64,000 nt of DNA, taken from the IMG/VR virus record IMGVR_UViG_3300009370_001603, positions 1 through 64,000 of that record; one strand, 5' to 3'. The position numbers and the translations under genes were made by a program. Below, piece after piece: positions 6,756 through 15,111 of the stretch. Each line of letters starts with the position of its first letter. Position 1 is the first letter of the stretch. This DNA comes from a virus. A model generated the notes under the pieces. It was not told the DNA's origin. It did not search any database and saw nothing but the letters and a program-made list of their open reading frames with translations.

Positions 6756-7969
6756 TGGAGAGACGAAAGTTTTTATCATCACTAGCTGGCGTGGTGGCAC
6801 TGACGCAAACACTAAAAGCTAATCAGCAGGAATTAAAAAAGAATGGTAAATCGGCCATCCTCCTATGGATGGGAGGTGGCCCCTCTACTATGGACATATG
6901 GGACTTAAAACCAGACGCGGCTACTGGAGGTCCATTTAAACCCATTTCCACCACTGGAGATGTTGAGATCTGTGAACACATGCCGCTAATGGCCAAGCAA
7001 ATGCACAACATGGCTATTATTAGAAGTATGAGCACTCGTGAGGCGGATCACATGCGAGGCCGTTACTATATGCACACTGGTTATGTTCCTAATCCAAATA
7101 TGGAACATCCGAGCTACGGCTCAGTTATATCTAAACAGTTGGAGAAGGAAGGTCTCTTAATCCCACAGTTCGTGTCTGTAAATGGCCCAAGTATGGGTGC
7201 CGGTTTCTTAGGTGCTCAATATGCACCGTTTACCGTGAATAGCGATGGTAGGATTAGAAATCTCGACATGAAAATAGACGAGAGATTCTACCAAAGGGCC
7301 GCTGTCCTCGACTTGATGGAAAAGAATTTCATTAATCAAAATAGAGGCTCCTTGGCCAAAGAGCACCAAAAGGTTCTCAAAAAGACATTTAATGTTTTAA
7401 CCAGTAAAGAAATGGATGCCACAAAGGTGGCCAATGAGCCAGAGGACGTAAGAGAAAGATACGGCGACAACAATTTCGGCAAAGGGTGCCTAATGGCTAG
7501 ACGTTTAGTAGAAGTTGGCGTCCCGTTCATAGAAGTCGGTTTAGGGGGCTGGGATAATCACCAAAATATATTCCCAACATTAAGAGACACAAAGTTACCC
7601 ATGCTCGATCAGGGCATGAGCGCTTTAGTAGAAGATTTAGAACAAAGAGGGTTATTGGAGGATACAGCTATTATATGGATGGGTGAATTTAGTAGAACCC
7701 CCCGTATCAACGGCAATGCTGGTCGTGACCATTGGGCGCGAAGCTGGAGCGTTGTCGTTGGCGGCGGCGGGATGAACGGCGGGATCGCTATCGGTAAAAC
7801 CAACGCAGATGGCACTCGTGTAGAAACAGAGCCATACACATCTCAGGATGTCATGGCCTCAATCTGCAAAGCACTCGGCATTTCGTTACAAACTACTTAC
7901 ACAAGCAATAGTGGTCGCCCCATGAAGATAGCTAATTCAGGAAAAATAATTACTGAACTATTTTCTTAG
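6755..7969 (+). CDS. DUF1501 family exported protein, copy 2
   Basis: A second DUF1501 protein of 404 residues, clearly diverged from the copy at 4243-5508. MERRKFLSSLAG is a twin-arginine-like start. Family motifs are LLWMGGGPSTMDIWD near residue 36, GGWDNHQN near 265 and GEFSRTPRI...GRDHWA near 305-325, then VVGGGGMNGG. The typical DUF1501 elements, including the GRDHW segment, are intact, so it is probably active rather than decayed. Two paralogs within 2.5 kb suggest either duplication in the phage or two captures. It is flanked by membrane-anchored small proteins on both sides, which fits an envelope function. The substrate is unknown. Confidence 0.85.
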   Translation: MERRKFLSSLAGVVALTQTLKANQQELKKNGKSAILLWMGGGPSTMDIWDLKPDAATGGPFKPISTTGDVEICEHMPLMAKQMHNMAIIRSMSTREADHMRGRYYMHTGYVPNPNMEHPSYGSVISKQLEKEGLLIPQFVSVNGPSMGAGFLGAQYAPFTVNSDGRIRNLDMKIDERFYQRAAVLDLMEKNFINQNRGSLAKEHQKVLKKTFNVLTSKEMDATKVANEPEDVRERYGDNNFGKGCLMARRLVEVGVPFIEVGLGGWDNHQNIFPTLRDTKLPMLDQGMSALVEDLEQRGLLEDTAIIWMGEFSRTPRINGNAGRDHWARSWSVVVGGGGMNGGIAIGKTNADGTRVETEPYTSQDVMASICKALGISLQTTYTSNSGRPMKIANSGKIITELFS

Positions 7970-7981
7970 AGGTATCCAAAA

Positions 7982-8287
7982 ATGAAATTCTTAAAATACG
8001 CGGTTTTCCTACTCTTTGCTATAACGACAGCTAACTTGGGCCTCACGGGTTACATGTATCACAAATCAAAAGAGCACGCAGAACATGAAATCGTTATTCC
8101 CCCCAATCCCATATTAGAGCAATCCTTGGGAAATGGTGTAGTAAGAGATACTCAAATCATGCAAGGGATCTTAATGACGCATCACAAACTGGGTGTGCAT
8201 CCCCCCGGAAAACAAGCCATGTGCCCATTGTGTGAACAGGAAGAGGGCGCGGATTCAAATATTATCACTGTTCAACGGGGGAGTTAA
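7982..8287 (+). CDS. Membrane-anchored small protein with CPLC motif
   Basis: A 101-residue protein with an N-terminal hydrophobic anchor (about residues 5-27), a His- and Pro-containing middle part and a CPLCEQEEG motif near residue 81. The single CxxC could bind a metal or form a disulfide in the periplasm. It follows the second DUF1501 gene by 12 bases with a ribosome site GAGGTATCC. No family is recognised; location next to DUF1501 hints at an envelope role. Confidence 0.5.
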   Translation: MKFLKYAVFLLFAITTANLGLTGYMYHKSKEHAEHEIVIPPNPILEQSLGNGVVRDTQIMQGILMTHHKLGVHPPGKQAMCPLCEQEEGADSNIITVQRGS

Positions 8288-8434
8288 GTGCGTTTTTACG
8301 AGTCAAGACAAACAAGAACATCACCGCTTAAATACACACTAGAGTTGTCACCAGAAGAGGCGGAGAAGGTAAAGAAGGAGTTGTTTGAAATAATAAACAA
8401 AATCAAAGGGGAAGAAAATGAAAAAGCTACTTAA
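8288..8434 (+). CDS. Small charged protein, GTG start
   Basis: A 48-residue frame beginning with GTG at 8288, directly after the previous stop. A strong GGGGGAG ribosome site lies 4 bases upstream, inside the preceding gene. The product is polar, with a helical Glu/Lys-rich second half (SPEEAEKVKKELFEI). It overlaps the next gene by 17 bases. Support is spacing and the ribosome site; no family is recognised. Confidence 0.45.
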   Translation: MRFYESRQTRTSPLKYTLELSPEEAEKVKKELFEIINKIKGEENEKAT

Positions 8435-9038
8435 ATACTTATGTACAGCACTCTTGGTGTGCCTTATGTTTACCCCTCCTCTGGACGCGCAGGAAGTCAA
8501 AACCGTAGTTCGACTCAAGATGCATAAGGCTACTCAGCTATATAGGCTTGGTGACGAAGATCAATCCAACCGCCTAGTCAACGAGACCATTGAGATCATG
8601 CTCAACGAAATACGTTCTGGCAACGTGGAGCCTTGGATGAAAGAAGGGCTGAATTTAGCAATGCGGGCGACTATGCGTCCCGCTGGAGAAATCGAGAAGG
8701 TTATGAAAGAAGTTGACTTGCAGCTATCGATCAAAAAGACGGTCGATGCTATGAAACTAATCAATAACCCCCCAAAGCCCCCAGAAAGAATTAGCGGTTC
8801 AGAACTTCATCAGCACCTTAGAAATCTAGATAACTCAAGGGCCACTAAAGAGTTTTTAAGGGCTAGGCACCGCGCCGTTGGATATCGACCAATTATTACA
8901 TGGTTCCCGCAGGGCACTTCTATGTCCGTTGGGCCAGTAATTGTCTCCCCAGACCGCCGCTACGTGAGGATAGGCGTTTCTATGACTCAAAGTGGTATAA
9001 CCGGAGTCAATACGTTCAACTTCTCTGGGGGGAGATAG
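8418..9038 (+). CDS. Secreted protein with planctomycete-type C-terminal segment
   Basis: A 206-residue protein with a clear signal peptide (hydrophobic residues 7-20, cleavage near LDAQ). A helical region of about residues 26-110 follows. The C-terminal segment GYRPIITWFPQGT...VSPDRRYVRIGVS...GVNTFNF resembles short domains I associate with planctomycete secreted or secretin-like proteins. The resemblance is by motif only. The ribosome site GGGGAAGAAA precedes the ATG at 8418. It is the last gene of the exported-protein block; a 126-base gap with a candidate promoter follows. Confidence 0.6.
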   Translation: MKKLLKYLCTALLVCLMFTPPLDAQEVKTVVRLKMHKATQLYRLGDEDQSNRLVNETIEIMLNEIRSGNVEPWMKEGLNLAMRATMRPAGEIEKVMKEVDLQLSIKKTVDAMKLINNPPKPPERISGSELHQHLRNLDNSRATKEFLRARHRAVGYRPIITWFPQGTSMSVGPVIVSPDRRYVRIGVSMTQSGITGVNTFNFSGGR

Positions 9039-9073
9039 TGGCGAAATAAATCCACATTTAGGAAATAAAAGGA

Positions 9074-9102
9074 TTGGAAAACACAAGGTAATTGACTATT
9101 AT
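9074..9102 (+). promoter_or_regulatory. Candidate sigma70-type promoter upstream of split dnaE
   Basis: In the 126-base gap before the polymerase gene, TTGGAA (9074-9079) and TATTAT (9097-9102) are separated by exactly 17 bases. Each matches the -35 and -10 consensus moderately (4/6 and 5/6). The gap is the largest on the plus strand, which supports a new transcription unit starting here. The rest of the gap shows only an AAGGAAAG ribosome site before 9165. Confidence 0.4.
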
Positions 9103-9164
9103 ATTGTGTATCTGGGGTCAGTTCAGGCCCAAGCTGTTGAATAATAAATATTGAAGGAAAGTAT

Positions 9165-10793
9165 ATGGATTGGTTTCCATTGTGTAACTATACACACTAC
9201 TCTTTGCAAAAGGCGTTCTCTAAGCCAAAGCAACTTGCGGAGAAATGCTCTAAAAATGGCTATCGAGCTTGCGGGATAGCAGATTATAAAAGCATATCAG
9301 GCGGAGTTGCATTCTACAGGGCCTGCTTAAAAAAGAATATCAAACCAATAATAGGTTGTTCTTTTGACGACTTTAGCCTGTTCGCTAAAAATAAAAACGG
9401 ATGGCTAGAACTTATACAGATTGTTTCTTCAATCTCCAGCGATGGAGAATTAGACAAGAAGCTTCTTATGGGGCTTGCTAATAATGGCAATCTTATCTCC
9501 GTCGCCTCTGACGAATCGTTATCACCAATAAAGGGTGATGATTTCTACGAAAAAAGCCCAAGTCTTCATGTAAGTTATTACACAGAGAAGGAACACGCTA
9601 AACTGCACAGAATTTTACTCTGCTCCGCGATGAAGACCACTGTCCCCAAGATAACCAAGTCCATTAACAACGGAGATTCCGTAGACAATCAAATCTTTTT
9701 TGAATCAAATGATTTCTTTGTTAGGGACAAGTTTGGCGCAGCGGAACTTTTGATAGAAGACCCAAGGCCAAATCTATTTAAAGAAATATACAGCAAGTGT
9801 GAGAATTACGATATTCTTAATCAGCCCATGCTGCCTACGTTTAAAACCCCCGATGGAGAATCTCAAAAGAAATACTTGCGGGCATTAGCCAGAGAGGGAT
9901 GGACAGATCTTCTTGGCGACACAGTTACCGACGAAGAACAAAAGAAGGCATATGGAGACAGATTTAGAAAAGAGTATGAAGTTATTGAGCAAGCAAATTT
10001 ATTTGGGTATTTTTTGATCGTCTGGGATATTATAAGGCATTGTCAAAGTCAAGGGTGGATGGTTGGTCCCGGAAGAGGATCTGCTGCGGGATGCCTTATT
10101 TCATATCTAATTGGAATCACACAAATAGATCCAATTGAGTTTGATTTATTATTTGAAAGATTTTATAACGCTGGCCGCAACACCGAAGATCATATCTCCC
10201 TTCCGGATATTGATATAGATGTTCCCGGAGGAAAGCGCGATGAAATTATATCATATCTAAAAGACAAGTACGGTAGCGACAATGTTAGCCAGATGCTAAC
10301 GTTTGGAAGGCTACAGGGGCGTAGCGCAATTAAAGAAGTATTACGTGTAAATAATGCCTGCGGATTCGGAGAAATGAACGAGATAACAAAATACATTCCC
10401 GACGAAGCTGCCATCTCTGATCAGCTTGCAGAAATGGACGAAGAAGATAGATCCATTATTCGCTGGGCACTAATTAACAATGCAGATGACCTGCGTGATT
10501 ATTGCTTTATAAATGACAAAGGCCAGCTACAGGGTGATTACTCAGAATATTTTCAGCAGGCCATTGATATTGAAGGAACTTTTAAAACACAGGGAAAACA
10601 TGCTGCTGGCGTTGTTATTTCAGCAGAGCCTCTTTACACAGTTTGCCCCATGGTAAACCAAAGAAGCGGAAAGGAAAAAATTGCTGGCTTAGAAATGGCA
10701 GACCTTGAAGCTTTAGGACATGTTAAATTTGACGTACTAGGCATCAACCTTTTAGATAAACTGATGCTGATTAAGGAGACTATCTATGAATAG
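9165..10793 (+). CDS. dnaE: DNA polymerase III alpha subunit, N-terminal piece (PHP and palm)
   Basis: This 542-residue gene encodes the front part of a C-family replicative polymerase. The first 70 residues align to a PHP domain, but metal ligands seem lost: the usual HxH start reads CNYTHYS, and the TDHGN element reads ADYKS. The palm is intact: GPGRGSAAG near residue 301, PDIDID at 347-352 with the two catalytic aspartates, the KHAAGVVIS motif near 477, and the KFDVLG strand carrying the third aspartate near 523. The frame stops about 20 residues later, just before the fingers, and overlaps the exonuclease gene by 8 bases. The rest of the protein is at 11477-13042. No intein or intron sequence is seen at the end. 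Confidence 0.9.
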   Translation: MDWFPLCNYTHYSLQKAFSKPKQLAEKCSKNGYRACGIADYKSISGGVAFYRACLKKNIKPIIGCSFDDFSLFAKNKNGWLELIQIVSSISSDGELDKKLLMGLANNGNLISVASDESLSPIKGDDFYEKSPSLHVSYYTEKEHAKLHRILLCSAMKTTVPKITKSINNGDSVDNQIFFESNDFFVRDKFGAAELLIEDPRPNLFKEIYSKCENYDILNQPMLPTFKTPDGESQKKYLRALAREGWTDLLGDTVTDEEQKKAYGDRFRKEYEVIEQANLFGYFLIVWDIIRHCQSQGWMVGPGRGSAAGCLISYLIGITQIDPIEFDLLFERFYNAGRNTEDHISLPDIDIDVPGGKRDEIISYLKDKYGSDNVSQMLTFGRLQGRSAIKEVLRVNNACGFGEMNEITKYIPDEAAISDQLAEMDEEDRSIIRWALINNADDLRDYCFINDKGQLQGDYSEYFQQAIDIEGTFKTQGKHAAGVVISAEPLYTVCPMVNQRSGKEKIAGLEMADLEALGHVKFDVLGINLLDKLMLIKETIYE

Positions 10794-11460
10794 AGATATC
10801 ATTATGTTTGACTTTGAAACGGGCGGTCGCAACCCAATGAAATGTCAACCGACTCAGATTGCTGCGATAGCATTGGACGGAAGGAATTTTAGACTCAAGG
10901 GTGAGTTTAACAGTATGATGCGTCCTATTATAGACGACGACGAGGCTATAGCTGCGGGTGTTGACCCAATTGAAGAAGGTGCCTTAAAGGTCACTGGACA
11001 AACAAGGGCAAAACTCGCAAGAGCGCCGCTGCCAAAAGGTGTCTGGAAAAAGTTCTGCACCTTTGTGAATAAGTACAATTGGAAGGGTACACCTTATTTT
11101 GCACCTATTCCGGCAGGATTTAACATCATCGGCTATGACATGCACATCGTCAATCGCTTGTGTAAGGAATATGGGCCTTGGGACGACAAGCGTCAGTCAC
11201 AGAAGCTTTTCCATCAAATCTACAAGATAGATGTTATGGATGACGTGTGGCTCTGGACAGAGGGAGACCCCGCAGTAAAGTCTATTAGCATGGATTCGCT
11301 AAGAGAAAGAATGGGGCTGTCTTCAGAAAATGCTCATGACGCCCTGCAAGACGTTAAAGATACCGCTAATATTTTTATAAAACTGCAAAAGTCAAGACGG
11401 GCAGTTTATCGTAACATGAAATTTGAAAAAGCATTTGCGGACGGCAAGCTTTTTGTTTAA
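10786..11460 (+). CDS. DEDDh 3'-5' exonuclease (proofreading type) inside the dnaE locus
   Basis: A 224-residue exonuclease related to DnaQ/epsilon. Motif I is D9-F-E11, motif II is GYDMHIVNRL with D118, and motif III is H184-DALQ-D189, giving the complete DEDDh set. Metal-dependent 3'-5' hydrolysis is therefore expected. It lies between the two halves of DnaE and overlaps the first by 8 bases, so it very likely works as the proofreading subunit. A second gene starts 16 bases after its stop. It has no GIY-YIG, LAGLIDADG or HNH motif, so it is not a homing nuclease. It is slightly shorter than E. coli epsilon (243) and has no obvious C-terminal polymerase-binding tail. Confidence 0.88.
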   Translation: MNRDIIMFDFETGGRNPMKCQPTQIAAIALDGRNFRLKGEFNSMMRPIIDDDEAIAAGVDPIEEGALKVTGQTRAKLARAPLPKGVWKKFCTFVNKYNWKGTPYFAPIPAGFNIIGYDMHIVNRLCKEYGPWDDKRQSQKLFHQIYKIDVMDDVWLWTEGDPAVKSISMDSLRERMGLSSENAHDALQDVKDTANIFIKLQKSRRAVYRNMKFEKAFADGKLFV

Positions 11461-11476
11461 TAGTATTGAGACTAAA

Positions 11477-13042
11477 ATGATCGACAGGAATGACAAAAAA
11501 TCTTGGGACTTGTACAAGGAAGGTCTCACAAAGGGTGTATTTCAACTTGAGAGCAACCTTGGCAGAGCGTGGTCGAAAAGGCTGGCTCCAGAAAACCTAG
11601 AGGAACTCGCCGCACTCATTGCTTTGATTCGCCCCGGATGCCTTAAGGCTATTATTGATGGCAAGTCAATGACCCAAAGATTTGTGGACAGAAAACACAA
11701 AAAAGAAGAAGTCTCCTATCTACATGAATCCCTAGAAGATATCTTGAGTCCTACCTATGGCGTACTTGTTTACCAAGAGCAGGCCATGCGTATCGCCGTT
11801 AAGTTGGCCGGATTTAATGAGCAAGAAGCCGACAACCTTAGAAAAGCTATTGGTAAAAAGAAGGCCGGTTTGATGGCAAAAATTCGGGAGGAGTTTGTTC
11901 TAGGATGTCGAGAAGAAGGCATTGTAGACGAGGATACAGCTAAAGAAATCTTTGGTTGGATTGAAAAATCGTCTCGCTATTCCTTCAATAAATCTCACGC
12001 TGTAGCCTATGCGTTAGACTCTTATTGGTCGGCTTACTATAAAGCAAACCACACAAAAGAGTTCTTCCTGTCCTATCTATTCCATGCAAATGAAAAGCAA
12101 GACCCTCACCAAGAAATCTACGAGCTGGTGAATGAAGCCAAACTCTTCGATATTGAAGTGAAGGTTCCGAAACTATCGAGTTTTTCTAAAAAGTTCTCTG
12201 TTCGAGACGACGGCGTTTACTTCGGCATAAAGGATGTTAAATCTCTCACGGGTGTTACCGGCGACAAAGTAATAACCGCAATCGCTGAAACAAAAGAGGA
12301 ATCTGAAAAACCTCCAGAAAATTTCAGCTGGATGGACATCCTGATAAAGCTGTCCCCCAAGATTAACTCGACGGCTTTCAAGGCCCTTGCCGCCATTGGG
12401 TTCTTCTCCACCAAGTCCACCGGAGTCACCAGAAATCAAGCGCTTTATGAGTATTTGATTTTTAGAGAGCTGACAAAGGTTGAATTGGCTTGGGTGCAAA
12501 ACAATTATCGAAATAAAAAGTGGGAGAAACTAGAAGACTGCTTCTCTGACTTAGCCCCAACTAAAAAGCTAGGCGGTGGAACCAGCAATGTCAATAGGAT
12601 GCAAATAATAAACAATGAAATTGAAATGCTTAAGTATCCCCCGTATGATCTAAATGATGACCCAGCTTGGATTATTGAGCAAGAGACTAAAATGCTCGGT
12701 TGCCCAATTTCCCTGTCAAGAATTGATGCTGTAGACACCTCCATAGCAAATACAACATGTAAGGATGTCATGAATGGCAAGAGGGGAAACGATATTTGCA
12801 TTGTGGCAAATGTTCAGCGGGTCGCAAACCATAAAATAAACAAGAAAAACAGCAAACAAAAGGGAAGAGTAATGTCATTTTTGACAATAGAAGATGCGAC
12901 CTGCTCACTAGATAGCGTGGTCGTATTTCCGGACACAAGAGATAAATATCAATTTATTTTGTATGAGGGTAACAACCTAATGCTGTGCGGAGACGTGGAA
13001 AAAGACAGCTCATTCATTGTTAATAAAATTCACGAAATTTAG
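11477..13042 (+). CDS. dnaE: DNA polymerase III alpha subunit, C-terminal piece (fingers to OB fold)
   Basis: A 521-residue protein that continues DnaE directly after the point where the first piece ends. Its start MIDRNDKKSW leads into LTKGVFQLES, the conserved fingers entry. Further motifs are YGVLVYQEQAMRIA, ADNLRKAIGKKK and SRYSFNKSHAVAYA, then a helix-hairpin-helix-like region and a C-terminal OB-fold-like part (RVMSFLTIEDATCSLDSVVVFP). I chose ATG 11477; an earlier in-frame ATG at 11423 lies inside the exonuclease gene and adds residues without homology. The two pieces must associate without covalent linkage to make a working polymerase. The C-terminal tau-binding domain of cellular DnaE is not obvious. 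Confidence 0.88.
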   Translation: MIDRNDKKSWDLYKEGLTKGVFQLESNLGRAWSKRLAPENLEELAALIALIRPGCLKAIIDGKSMTQRFVDRKHKKEEVSYLHESLEDILSPTYGVLVYQEQAMRIAVKLAGFNEQEADNLRKAIGKKKAGLMAKIREEFVLGCREEGIVDEDTAKEIFGWIEKSSRYSFNKSHAVAYALDSYWSAYYKANHTKEFFLSYLFHANEKQDPHQEIYELVNEAKLFDIEVKVPKLSSFSKKFSVRDDGVYFGIKDVKSLTGVTGDKVITAIAETKEESEKPPENFSWMDILIKLSPKINSTAFKALAAIGFFSTKSTGVTRNQALYEYLIFRELTKVELAWVQNNYRNKKWEKLEDCFSDLAPTKKLGGGTSNVNRMQIINNEIEMLKYPPYDLNDDPAWIIEQETKMLGCPISLSRIDAVDTSIANTTCKDVMNGKRGNDICIVANVQRVANHKINKKNSKQKGRVMSFLTIEDATCSLDSVVVFPDTRDKYQFILYEGNNLMLCGDVEKDSSFIVNKIHEI

Positions 13043-13053
13043 CACAATTGATT

Positions 13054-13075
13054 GGAATTACTTAGGAATTACTTA
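13054..13075 (+). repeat. Two tandem 11-bp repeats upstream of ssb
   Basis: GGAATTACTTA occurs twice back to back (13054-13064 and 13065-13075) in the 70-base gap between the polymerase C-terminal piece and ssb. It lies 8 bases upstream of a candidate extended -10 element. It could be a protein-binding site or simple slippage. Confidence 0.45.
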
Positions 13076-13082
13076 AATCTTT

Positions 13083-13091
13083 TGCTATTAT
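13083..13091 (+). promoter_or_regulatory. Candidate extended -10 promoter for ssb
   Basis: TGCTATTAT at 13083-13091 fits TGnTATAAT with one mismatch, 22 bases before the ssb ATG. No good -35 is seen 17 bases upstream (TAGGAA), as tolerated with an extended -10. The tandem 11-bp repeats cover the -35 position. Support is sequence pattern only. Confidence 0.33.
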
Positions 13092-13112
13092 GTAGTAAAG
13101 CGAGATATTTAT

Positions 13113-13427
13113 ATGAACATATGCACATTCACGGGGTACCTTCTGCAAACTCCGGAGCTTTACCCAACAAGTGGGACGGTAAAGGCAAGGTTTTGTACAT
13201 TTGACTTGGTAACATACGAGTATGTACGAAATAAAAGCGGAGAAAAGAGGCGGTATCCAACGACCTTAAAGTTTCAGGCATGGGACAGCGGGGCCGACGC
13301 CATCACCAAGTTGGGTGAGAAGGGGATGAAGATGACAGTACACGCCTCCGCTAGAAATTCAGATACGGATGGCGATATTATTTTCAGGGTTAATCAGTTC
13401 GACTTCGGATGCTTGGACAAGGAATAA
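13113..13427 (+). CDS. ssb: Single-stranded DNA-binding protein, OB fold
   Basis: A 104-residue protein with an SSB-like OB fold. It shows FTGYLLQTPEL at the start, FCTFDLVTYEY in strand 2, then LKFQAWDSGADAITKLGEKGMKMTV and a FRVNQFDFG ending, which follow the bacterial SSB pattern. It lacks the acidic DDDIPF-type tail used for partner recruitment in cellular SSBs, ending in LDKE. It follows the polymerase genes and probably coats single-stranded DNA during phage replication. The stop at 13425-13427 is one base before the first glycosyltransferase start. Confidence 0.82.
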   Translation: MNICTFTGYLLQTPELYPTSGTVKARFCTFDLVTYEYVRNKSGEKRRYPTTLKFQAWDSGADAITKLGEKGMKMTVHASARNSDTDGDIIFRVNQFDFGCLDKE

Positions 13428-13428
13428 A

Positions 13429-15111
13429 ATGAGAAAAAAAAGAATTCTTTTTTGCAGTGAGGCCACGTTCTTAAATACAGGATATGCTACTTACACCCGT
13501 GAGATTTTAAATTATCTTCACGGCACAGGTAAATATGAGCTAGCGGAAATGGCCTCATATGGCCAGAGAAATGATCCGAGAGCAGAAGGCATCCCTTGGC
13601 GATACTACGGCGTAGCACCGAACACTGAGTGTGAACCAAAAGCATCTAAAGAGGAAATAGATGCATACAACTCTTCTGGATCGAACCAGTTCGGAGAGTG
13701 GATTTTTGAGCATGTATGCCTAGATTTCATGCCAGATATCGTGTGTGATATTCGGGATTTTTGGATGCTTGAGTTTGCCGAAAGGTCGCCATTTAGAGAT
13801 TACTTCAAGTGGTGCATTATGCCAACTGTAGACGCTAGGCCACAGGCGAGACAGTGGGTTTCCTCATACGCGAGCGCAGATGCCTGCTTTACATATTCAG
13901 ACTGGGCTGGTACTATACTAGAAGATCAATCTGGAGGAAAAATAAACTATCTCGGAAGCGCCCCTCCATCTGCCCACCCAGCCTACAATCCGGTAGAAGA
14001 TAAAAGGATGCAGAAAAAGCAGTTCGGACTAGATCCCGACTGCAAGATTATCGGAACCGTAATGCGTAACCAAAGACGCAAACTATATCCAGACCTATTC
14101 GCTGCGTTTAAAATGTTCTTGGATAAAACGGGAAGAAAAGATGTATATCTTTATTGCCATACTTCATACCCTGATCTTGGGTGGGACTTGCCAGAGCTAA
14201 TTCAACAAAACGGTTTAGCTTCCCATGTAATGTTCACATATATATGCCCAGAAACAAAGAGGCCGTTCCCATCTCTGTTCAAGGGGGCGGTAATCCAATC
14301 TCCCTTTACCGGCAAATGGGGATCAACCCTGTCGAACGTTAAAAACGGAGTATCTTACGAGGATCTCTCCTCGATAATTAGTTTGTTTGACCTATACACA
14401 CAATATGCAAACTGTGAAGGATTTGGTCTACCATATGTAGAAGCTGCTGCCTGTGGCATCCCAGTGTGTGGAACTGACTATTCTGCTATGGAGAGTGAAA
14501 TTAGAAAGCTACAAGGCTATCCGATTAAACCCAAAGCTCTTTACAAAGAACTTGAAACAGGATGCTTGCGAGCCGTCCCTGACAATGAAATTGCGTGCGA
14601 TTATTTCGCATCATTCTTCGCAAGACCGGAAGAAGATAGGCAGGCAGAGGGAAAAAGAACCCGCGAGAATTTCCAAAAGCACTTCCAGTGGCACCTAAGC
14701 GGGAAAAAATGGGAAGATTATTTTGACAGTGTTGAATTGATGCCGGTCGAGCAAACTTGGTGCTCTGCACCCAAAATAGCTCCCCCTTCGCCAAAGCCAG
14801 AAAAAATACAACCCAACGCAAATCATAAAGATTTAGCCAGATGGTTGATCGTAGAAGCTCTTAGAGATCCCTCAAAGCTAAATTCTTTTTTTGAAGCAAG
14901 ATTGACTAGAGACTTAACTTACAGGAGTGCAACCTCGTCAACGGGGGGTATGTATTTCAATGAGTCTTCAGCCGCGTTCGACGGCTTAAATACAAGAACT
15001 CCATTTGATTTTGATATTGCCTACGAGAACATGTGCCACCAGCGAAATAGAATTAATCAATGGGAGCAAAAAAGAATAGAAACAATGCGGGAGCGAGGCT
15101 TGATGCAATAA
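13429..15111 (+). CDS. GT-B glycosyltransferase (family 4/1 type) with C-terminal extension
   Basis: A retaining-type GT-B glycosyltransferase. The N-terminal Rossmann domain begins RILFCSEATFLNTGYATY; the C-terminal nucleotide-sugar domain has CEGFGLPYVEAAACGIPV (an E-x7-E motif, about residues 325-342). A Pro-rich linker at about residue 455 leads to a roughly 100-residue extension with no recognised domain. The start at 13429 is preferred because the stop of ssb ends at 13427 and an upstream ATG in the same frame falls inside ssb. Total length is 560. It opens the glycan island. Donor and acceptor cannot be read from the sequence. Confidence 0.82.
   Translation: MRKKRILFCSEATFLNTGYATYTREILNYLHGTGKYELAEMASYGQRNDPRAEGIPWRYYGVAPNTECEPKASKEEIDAYNSSGSNQFGEWIFEHVCLDFMPDIVCDIRDFWMLEFAERSPFRDYFKWCIMPTVDARPQARQWVSSYASADACFTYSDWAGTILEDQSGGKINYLGSAPPSAHPAYNPVEDKRMQKKQFGLDPDCKIIGTVMRNQRRKLYPDLFAAFKMFLDKTGRKDVYLYCHTSYPDLGWDLPELIQQNGLASHVMFTYICPETKRPFPSLFKGAVIQSPFTGKWGSTLSNVKNGVSYEDLSSIISLFDLYTQYANCEGFGLPYVEAAACGIPVCGTDYSAMESEIRKLQGYPIKPKALYKELETGCLRAVPDNEIACDYFASFFARPEEDRQAEGKRTRENFQKHFQWHLSGKKWEDYFDSVELMPVEQTWCSAPKIAPPSPKPEKIQPNANHKDLARWLIVEALRDPSKLNSFFEARLTRDLTYRSATSSTGGMYFNESSAAFDGLNTRTPFDFDIAYENMCHQRNRINQWEQKRIETMRERGLMQ

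Follow-up and report, generated by a model that had tools for sequence, protein, structure and literature searches.

A DnaE polymerase encoded by two genes, with an exonuclease gene lodged between them, raises the question of whether the two pieces still make one working polymerase and, if so, how they are held together. The window analysed here, 64,000 nucleotides in length, comprises bases 1-64000 of the 122,518-base virus record IMGVR_UViG_3300009370_001603 (IMG/VR). The unit consists of three genes in the same direction, encoding the N-terminal piece of DnaE (N), the exonuclease and the C-terminal piece (C), and is followed by an SSB-like gene (Table 1). The last 8 nt of N overlap the exonuclease start, C starts 16 nt past the exonuclease, and N and C lie in different reading frames. 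The SSB match is slightly below the curated Pfam cut-off of 26 bits; an SSB-like gene is found 3' of C in most of the relatives listed. Elsewhere in the window, a DUF1501 gene with no PHROG match sits in this phage genome (6755-7969, Pfam E 9.1e-105), and a long run of genes (13369-33900) resembles, by the look of their sequences, glycosyltransferases, FkbM-type methyltransferases and sugar-nucleotide enzymes.

Table 1. Features of the split polymerase unit in window coordinates
Feature	Position	Strand	Length and evidence
DnaE N-terminal piece (PHP + palm/thumb)	9165..10793	+	542 aa; Pfam, E. coli alignment, AlphaFold, Foldseek
N stop codon TAG	10791-10793	+	
AAGGAG, Shine-Dalgarno-like, within last codons of N	10773..10778	+	read in sequence
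DEDDh 3'-5' exonuclease, DnaQ/epsilon-like	10786..11460	+	224 aa; Pfam, PHROG
DnaE C-terminal piece (fingers, HhH, OB fold)	11477..13042	+	521 aa; Pfam, E. coli alignment, AlphaFold, Foldseek
SSB-like protein, downstream of C	13113..13427	+	Pfam SSB E 3.6e-05, 24.2 bits

N matches PHP (Pfam E 3.6e-14) and DNA_pol3_alpha PF07733 (E 1.5e-69, profile 1-260 of 260). Its residues D348, D350 and D523 align with D401, D403 and D555 of E. coli alpha, which we take to be the catalytic three, and are invariant in 60/60 aligned N sequences, bearing out the sequence-only reading, which had assigned all three palm aspartates to N. That reading had likewise placed the fingers in C, which indeed matches DNA_pol3_finger PF17657 (Pfam E 6.2e-47, profile 19-166 of 166). 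The AlphaFold models of the two pieces have a mean pLDDT of 92.5 for N and 89.9 for C, and their top Foldseek matches are C-family polymerases (for N, e.g. 2hnh, TMq 0.78); as these models are of single, separate chains, it is we who infer the N–C and exonuclease interfaces.

Three points of the first description required correction. The open reading frame of C as listed starts at TTG 11423 (539 aa), yet homology in relatives begins at ATG 11477, which is therefore the likelier start; the PHP domain of N is shortened; and C stops after the OB fold, with no tau-binding C-terminal domain recognised in it.

The alignment of N with E. coli alpha ends at residue 563, leaving 11 further residues of N, while that of C starts at residue 588, so that only about 14 residues of loop are missing and, as had been claimed, the halves cover DnaE without a large gap. 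The break thus falls in the loop after the palm, at about E. coli residues 574-588, some 170 residues N-terminal of the FNKSH region, where we take the cyanobacterial DnaE split to be rejoined by a split intein; the distinction drawn earlier between the two sites holds. A split intein could nevertheless join the phage halves after translation, the mechanism of cyanobacterial DnaE and of certain fractured phage genes, and relatives do have split inteins elsewhere in this same polymerase, between FN[KR] and SH in seven distinct loci and between GRG and S in locus L170. At the break itself, however, the predicted N model terminates in a helix (residues 528-541), C starts at once, and the exonuclease takes up the less than 700 nt between them. 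Pfam gave neither a Hint nor an intein match in N or C of the window, in agreement with the earlier impression that neither end looks like an intein, and no junction reading frame listed reads as an intein half. Rejoining by a split intein is hence extremely improbable, and the association of N and C is most likely non-covalent.

Relatives were collected by IMG/VR searches with N, C, the exonuclease and profiles, together with one bacterial-genome scan. The resulting family comprises 277 loci, the window included, of which 18 lack N or C and one has a truncated C, leaving 258 with both junction ends readable; removal of copies with identical N ends reduced these to 149 distinct loci. The order N–exonuclease–C at the same split site, which the sequence-only reading had proposed to look for in related phages, is present in 147/149, placing palm and fingers on separate chains, unlike the usual single-polypeptide DnaE; the other two (L034 and L246) are fused. 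Clustering at 95% gave 125 N–exonuclease–C units and two fused among 127. One scan of public viral contigs confirmed 433 stretches as relatives; since the best 80 of 433 and the best 80 of 485 were taken from two relative scans, the counts lean to near relatives.

N, exonuclease and C are all under purifying selection. Silent sites had reached saturation in most pairs of loci, one pair was identical, and L163/L161 and L178/L181 are near saturation, so that pN/pS was taken from two pairs alone: L022/L018 (N 0.085/0.609, exonuclease 0.013/0.462, C 0.033/0.466) and L218/L222 (N 0.016/0.402, exonuclease 0.031/0.561, C 0.006/0.227). The distances of the three proteins co-vary across 72 loci (Mantel r of 0.91 for N and C, 0.86 for N and exonuclease, 0.87 for C and exonuclease; permuted maxima below 0.19). 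In seven virus records, which may be incomplete, the DnaE palm domain occurs once per record (7/7), neither PolA nor PolB was found in any, and a DnaB-type helicase is present in six, G000 being the record where it was not found; a DnaN-type clamp was not found in these seven records. The phage probably relies on the split DnaE as its sole replicative polymerase.

These data bear on whether a normal dnaE only seems split, through a sequencing or assembly error as suspected in the sequence-only reading, or has decayed and carries an insertion. The two fused relatives would fit either. Against this stand the recurrence of the same split in 147 distinct loci from many metagenomes, the selection acting on all three genes, and the failure to find a second DnaE or another polymerase in the seven virus records. 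An artefact or a dead gene is thus vanishingly improbable. That reading had also looked to homologs uninterrupted at this site as evidence against a split polymerase: such single genes exist in L034 and L246, but they do not undo the split in the 147 other loci, and the best trees put the pair inside the split clade.

In this large uncultivated phage clade, the three-gene unit very probably encodes the replicative C-family polymerase, most likely as a translationally coupled operon whose products would form a non-covalent three-chain polymerase–proofreader core. The alpha chain would be broken in the loop between palm and fingers, its two parts being made separately and associating through the normal palm–fingers interface, while the DEDDh exonuclease would serve as a dedicated proofreader, docking on N as E. 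coli epsilon does on the PHP domain.

The gene between the halves had been called a complete DEDDh exonuclease, and both the catalytic residues and the RNase_T domain are present. The protein matches RNase_T (Pfam E 1.4e-10) and phrog_192, 'DNA polymerase exonuclease subunit' (E 2.8e-25), and D9, E11, D118, H184 and D189 are invariant in 12/12 aligned sequences. According to an excerpt of PMC12926913, the signature of an active PHP domain consists of nine residues, HHDHEH[C/H]DH. With the signature columns assigned by hand from the alignment, the PHP domain of the window keeps 0/9 of these ligands, all nine being replaced; its nuclease site is lost and the domain looks inactive. As all PHP ligands are gone from the window, the exonuclease is likely the proofreader, acting in trans, and probably the sole one in the lineage of the window. 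The signature is intact (9/9) in the split loci L258 and L259 and in the fused loci L034 and L246, so the split itself is not tied to the loss of PHP proofreading, gene splitting and PHP loss being separate events.

A Shine-Dalgarno-like AAGGAG is located within the final codons of N, 7 nt ahead of the exonuclease ATG, and an SD-like motif, likewise in the terminal part of N, is found no more than 20 nt upstream of the exonuclease in all 38 of the distinct close-junction loci examined. Such a ribosome-binding site suggests that translation of N and of the exonuclease is coupled, and N, exonuclease and perhaps C could then be translated in coupled order. The N-to-exonuclease gap among the 147 loci is at most 60 nt in 73, 61-300 nt in 47 and above 300 nt in 27, so that coupling would not be universal, the gap exceeding 60 nt in 74/147. 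Between exonuclease and C, the corresponding numbers are 96, 4 and 47. The same layout bears on another way of restoring one chain, in which the exonuclease would sit within an intron and the halves would be reunited by RNA splicing or by ribosome bypass. Both group I and group II introns and a bypass are known from phages, which lends this idea some credit, but N has its own stop, the short overlap and spacer around the exonuclease leave little room for intron cores, the two halves are in different frames, and Rfam gave no match around the unit (window 7000-15000, E up to 1) nor, at gathering level, in four whole loci. Rejoining at the RNA level or by the ribosome is very improbable.

The fused relatives bear on the direction of change. 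In L034 and L246, one reading frame runs across the junction site and the exonuclease is upstream; the matched ends of N and C are separated by 15 residues in L034. A first tree was built with 82 rows from 84 representatives, L277 and L285 being excluded for their DnaE in broken frames, and a more careful one with 42 of the representatives. On both best trees, the fused pair nests inside the split clade (support 97/99 on the careful tree), which points to re-fusion and suggests that L034 and L246 arose in this way. Forcing all split rows together costs only 6.4 log-likelihood units, and the placement of the fused pair outside the clade, as expected from one fission event, is not rejected (AU p 0.193). 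A stronger version of the re-fusion scenario can be offered tentatively, as rather unlikely in its full form: the split form would be ancestral and selected, the gene order would reflect the order (N, exonuclease, C) in which an obligate heterotrimeric Pol III core assembles during translation, and L034 and L246 would have re-fused later.

The same polymerase is interrupted at other sites in relatives. Intein calls have Pfam support in L024 and L034 and otherwise come from reading the sequence. A split-intein-like break of the C piece between FN[KR] and SH, presumably close to the cyanobacterial DnaE intein site, is found in L034, L044, L069, L191, L205, L217 and L239 and houses a free-standing NUMOD3/DUF559 endonuclease-like gene between the intein halves, L044 ending inside the break before the endonuclease. 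Locus L024 has an HNH intein between RPG and C, L191 carries what reads as one, and L170 (L170:2569-5336) has a palm split intein at its GRG–S site whose halves flank an endonuclease-like reading frame. The N–C break stands out as the one without an intein amid a DnaE gene prone to fracture. As a separate observation, N of L033 (L033:4271-6261) is itself divided over two overlapping frames; the break immediately precedes SLPDIDID, and no intein was seen there.

Insertions also occur at the two junctions of the unit. A cluster of endonuclease VII-like inserts occupies the exonuclease–C junction in 17 loci, and HNH_3, NaeI-like and methyltransferase-like genes are found as further junction inserts. 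Between N and exonuclease, a conserved protein of about 76 aa is encoded in 36 loci (including L184:7580-7801; the one member scanned had no Pfam match), and another cluster of 10 loci, which we take to be HNH-type, gave in the two members scanned only Pfam helix-turn-helix and weak NUMOD1 matches. The split may have originated from invasion by endonuclease or intein elements. It could be old and functional yet neutral: dnaE would have been fractured by a homing endonuclease or an intein into pieces that could assemble, and the exonuclease would have replaced or displaced the endonuclease, its order and spacing having no functional meaning. The nuclease-like genes taken by both junctions, the further inteins in the same gene and the tolerance of N-to-exonuclease gaps above 60 nt all favour this reading, while the exonuclease keeps its place between N and C in every one of the 147 split loci, even on deep branches, which suggests some constraint. 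We consider a neutral split a serious possibility, somewhat short of an even chance; it shares non-covalent assembly and competes only with a selected gene order, so that its probability overlaps with that of the three-chain core preferred here.

Compared with known systems, the three-chain core resembles the E. coli-type DnaE1–DnaQ pair (Pol III alpha–epsilon) in its C-family palm and fingers, its DEDDh proofreader on a separate chain and, in the lineage of the window, its inactive PHP domain. It differs in that alpha is made from two genes flanking the exonuclease, in the shortened PHP and unrecognised tau-binding domain, and in that no DnaN clamp was found in the seven phage records searched. 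Cyanobacterial DnaE is likewise encoded in two genes, whereas the phage break is more N-terminal and without an intein. The fractured phage genes of Dassa et al. 2009 (cited in PMC6892783), which reportedly carry split inteins and a free-standing endonuclease, are similar in that two parts of a replication gene flank another gene; the window break lacks an intein, and its halves are separated by a proofreading exonuclease rather than an endonuclease. Cellulophaga phages phi13:1 and phiST also have DnaE in two adjacent genes, but the split, read from phi13:1 only, falls within the palm immediately ahead of the PDIDID region, in the same loop as that of L033 N, with abutting genes, and the annotated DEDDh exonuclease of phi13:1 is several genes upstream. 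Polymerases of T4-like Aeromonas phages are split as gp43A/43B, which are also two-chain phage replicative polymerases, but of the B family and at another site. Fragmented phage polymerases and intein-split DnaE are already known, and the N–exonuclease–C arrangement is a variant of them.

Among cultured phages, tblastn with the exonuclease returned seven records, all below 30% identity. Bacteroides phage DAC19 did not show the same order, its DnaE match being contained in a single 3.8-kb gene some 14 kb away from the match to the exonuclease; for Chryseobacterium phage MA9V-3, the comparison covered the exonuclease neighbourhood. No published report of the arrangement was found in the open-licence literature, searched by title or the start of the abstract. 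If the pieces assemble as proposed, a replicative DnaE would work as two non-covalent chains, and palm–fingers motion and proofreader docking would be open to separate expression and mixing. The split, fused and intein-broken relatives form a natural series on the fracture and repair of essential genes. The clade is common in public viral contigs, and the split arrangement, although unusual, is widely shared within it. In locus L288 (VFHP01000007.1), the contig with the unit was binned into a bacterial MAG of SAR202; SAR202 may be the host, or a virus contig may have entered the bin.
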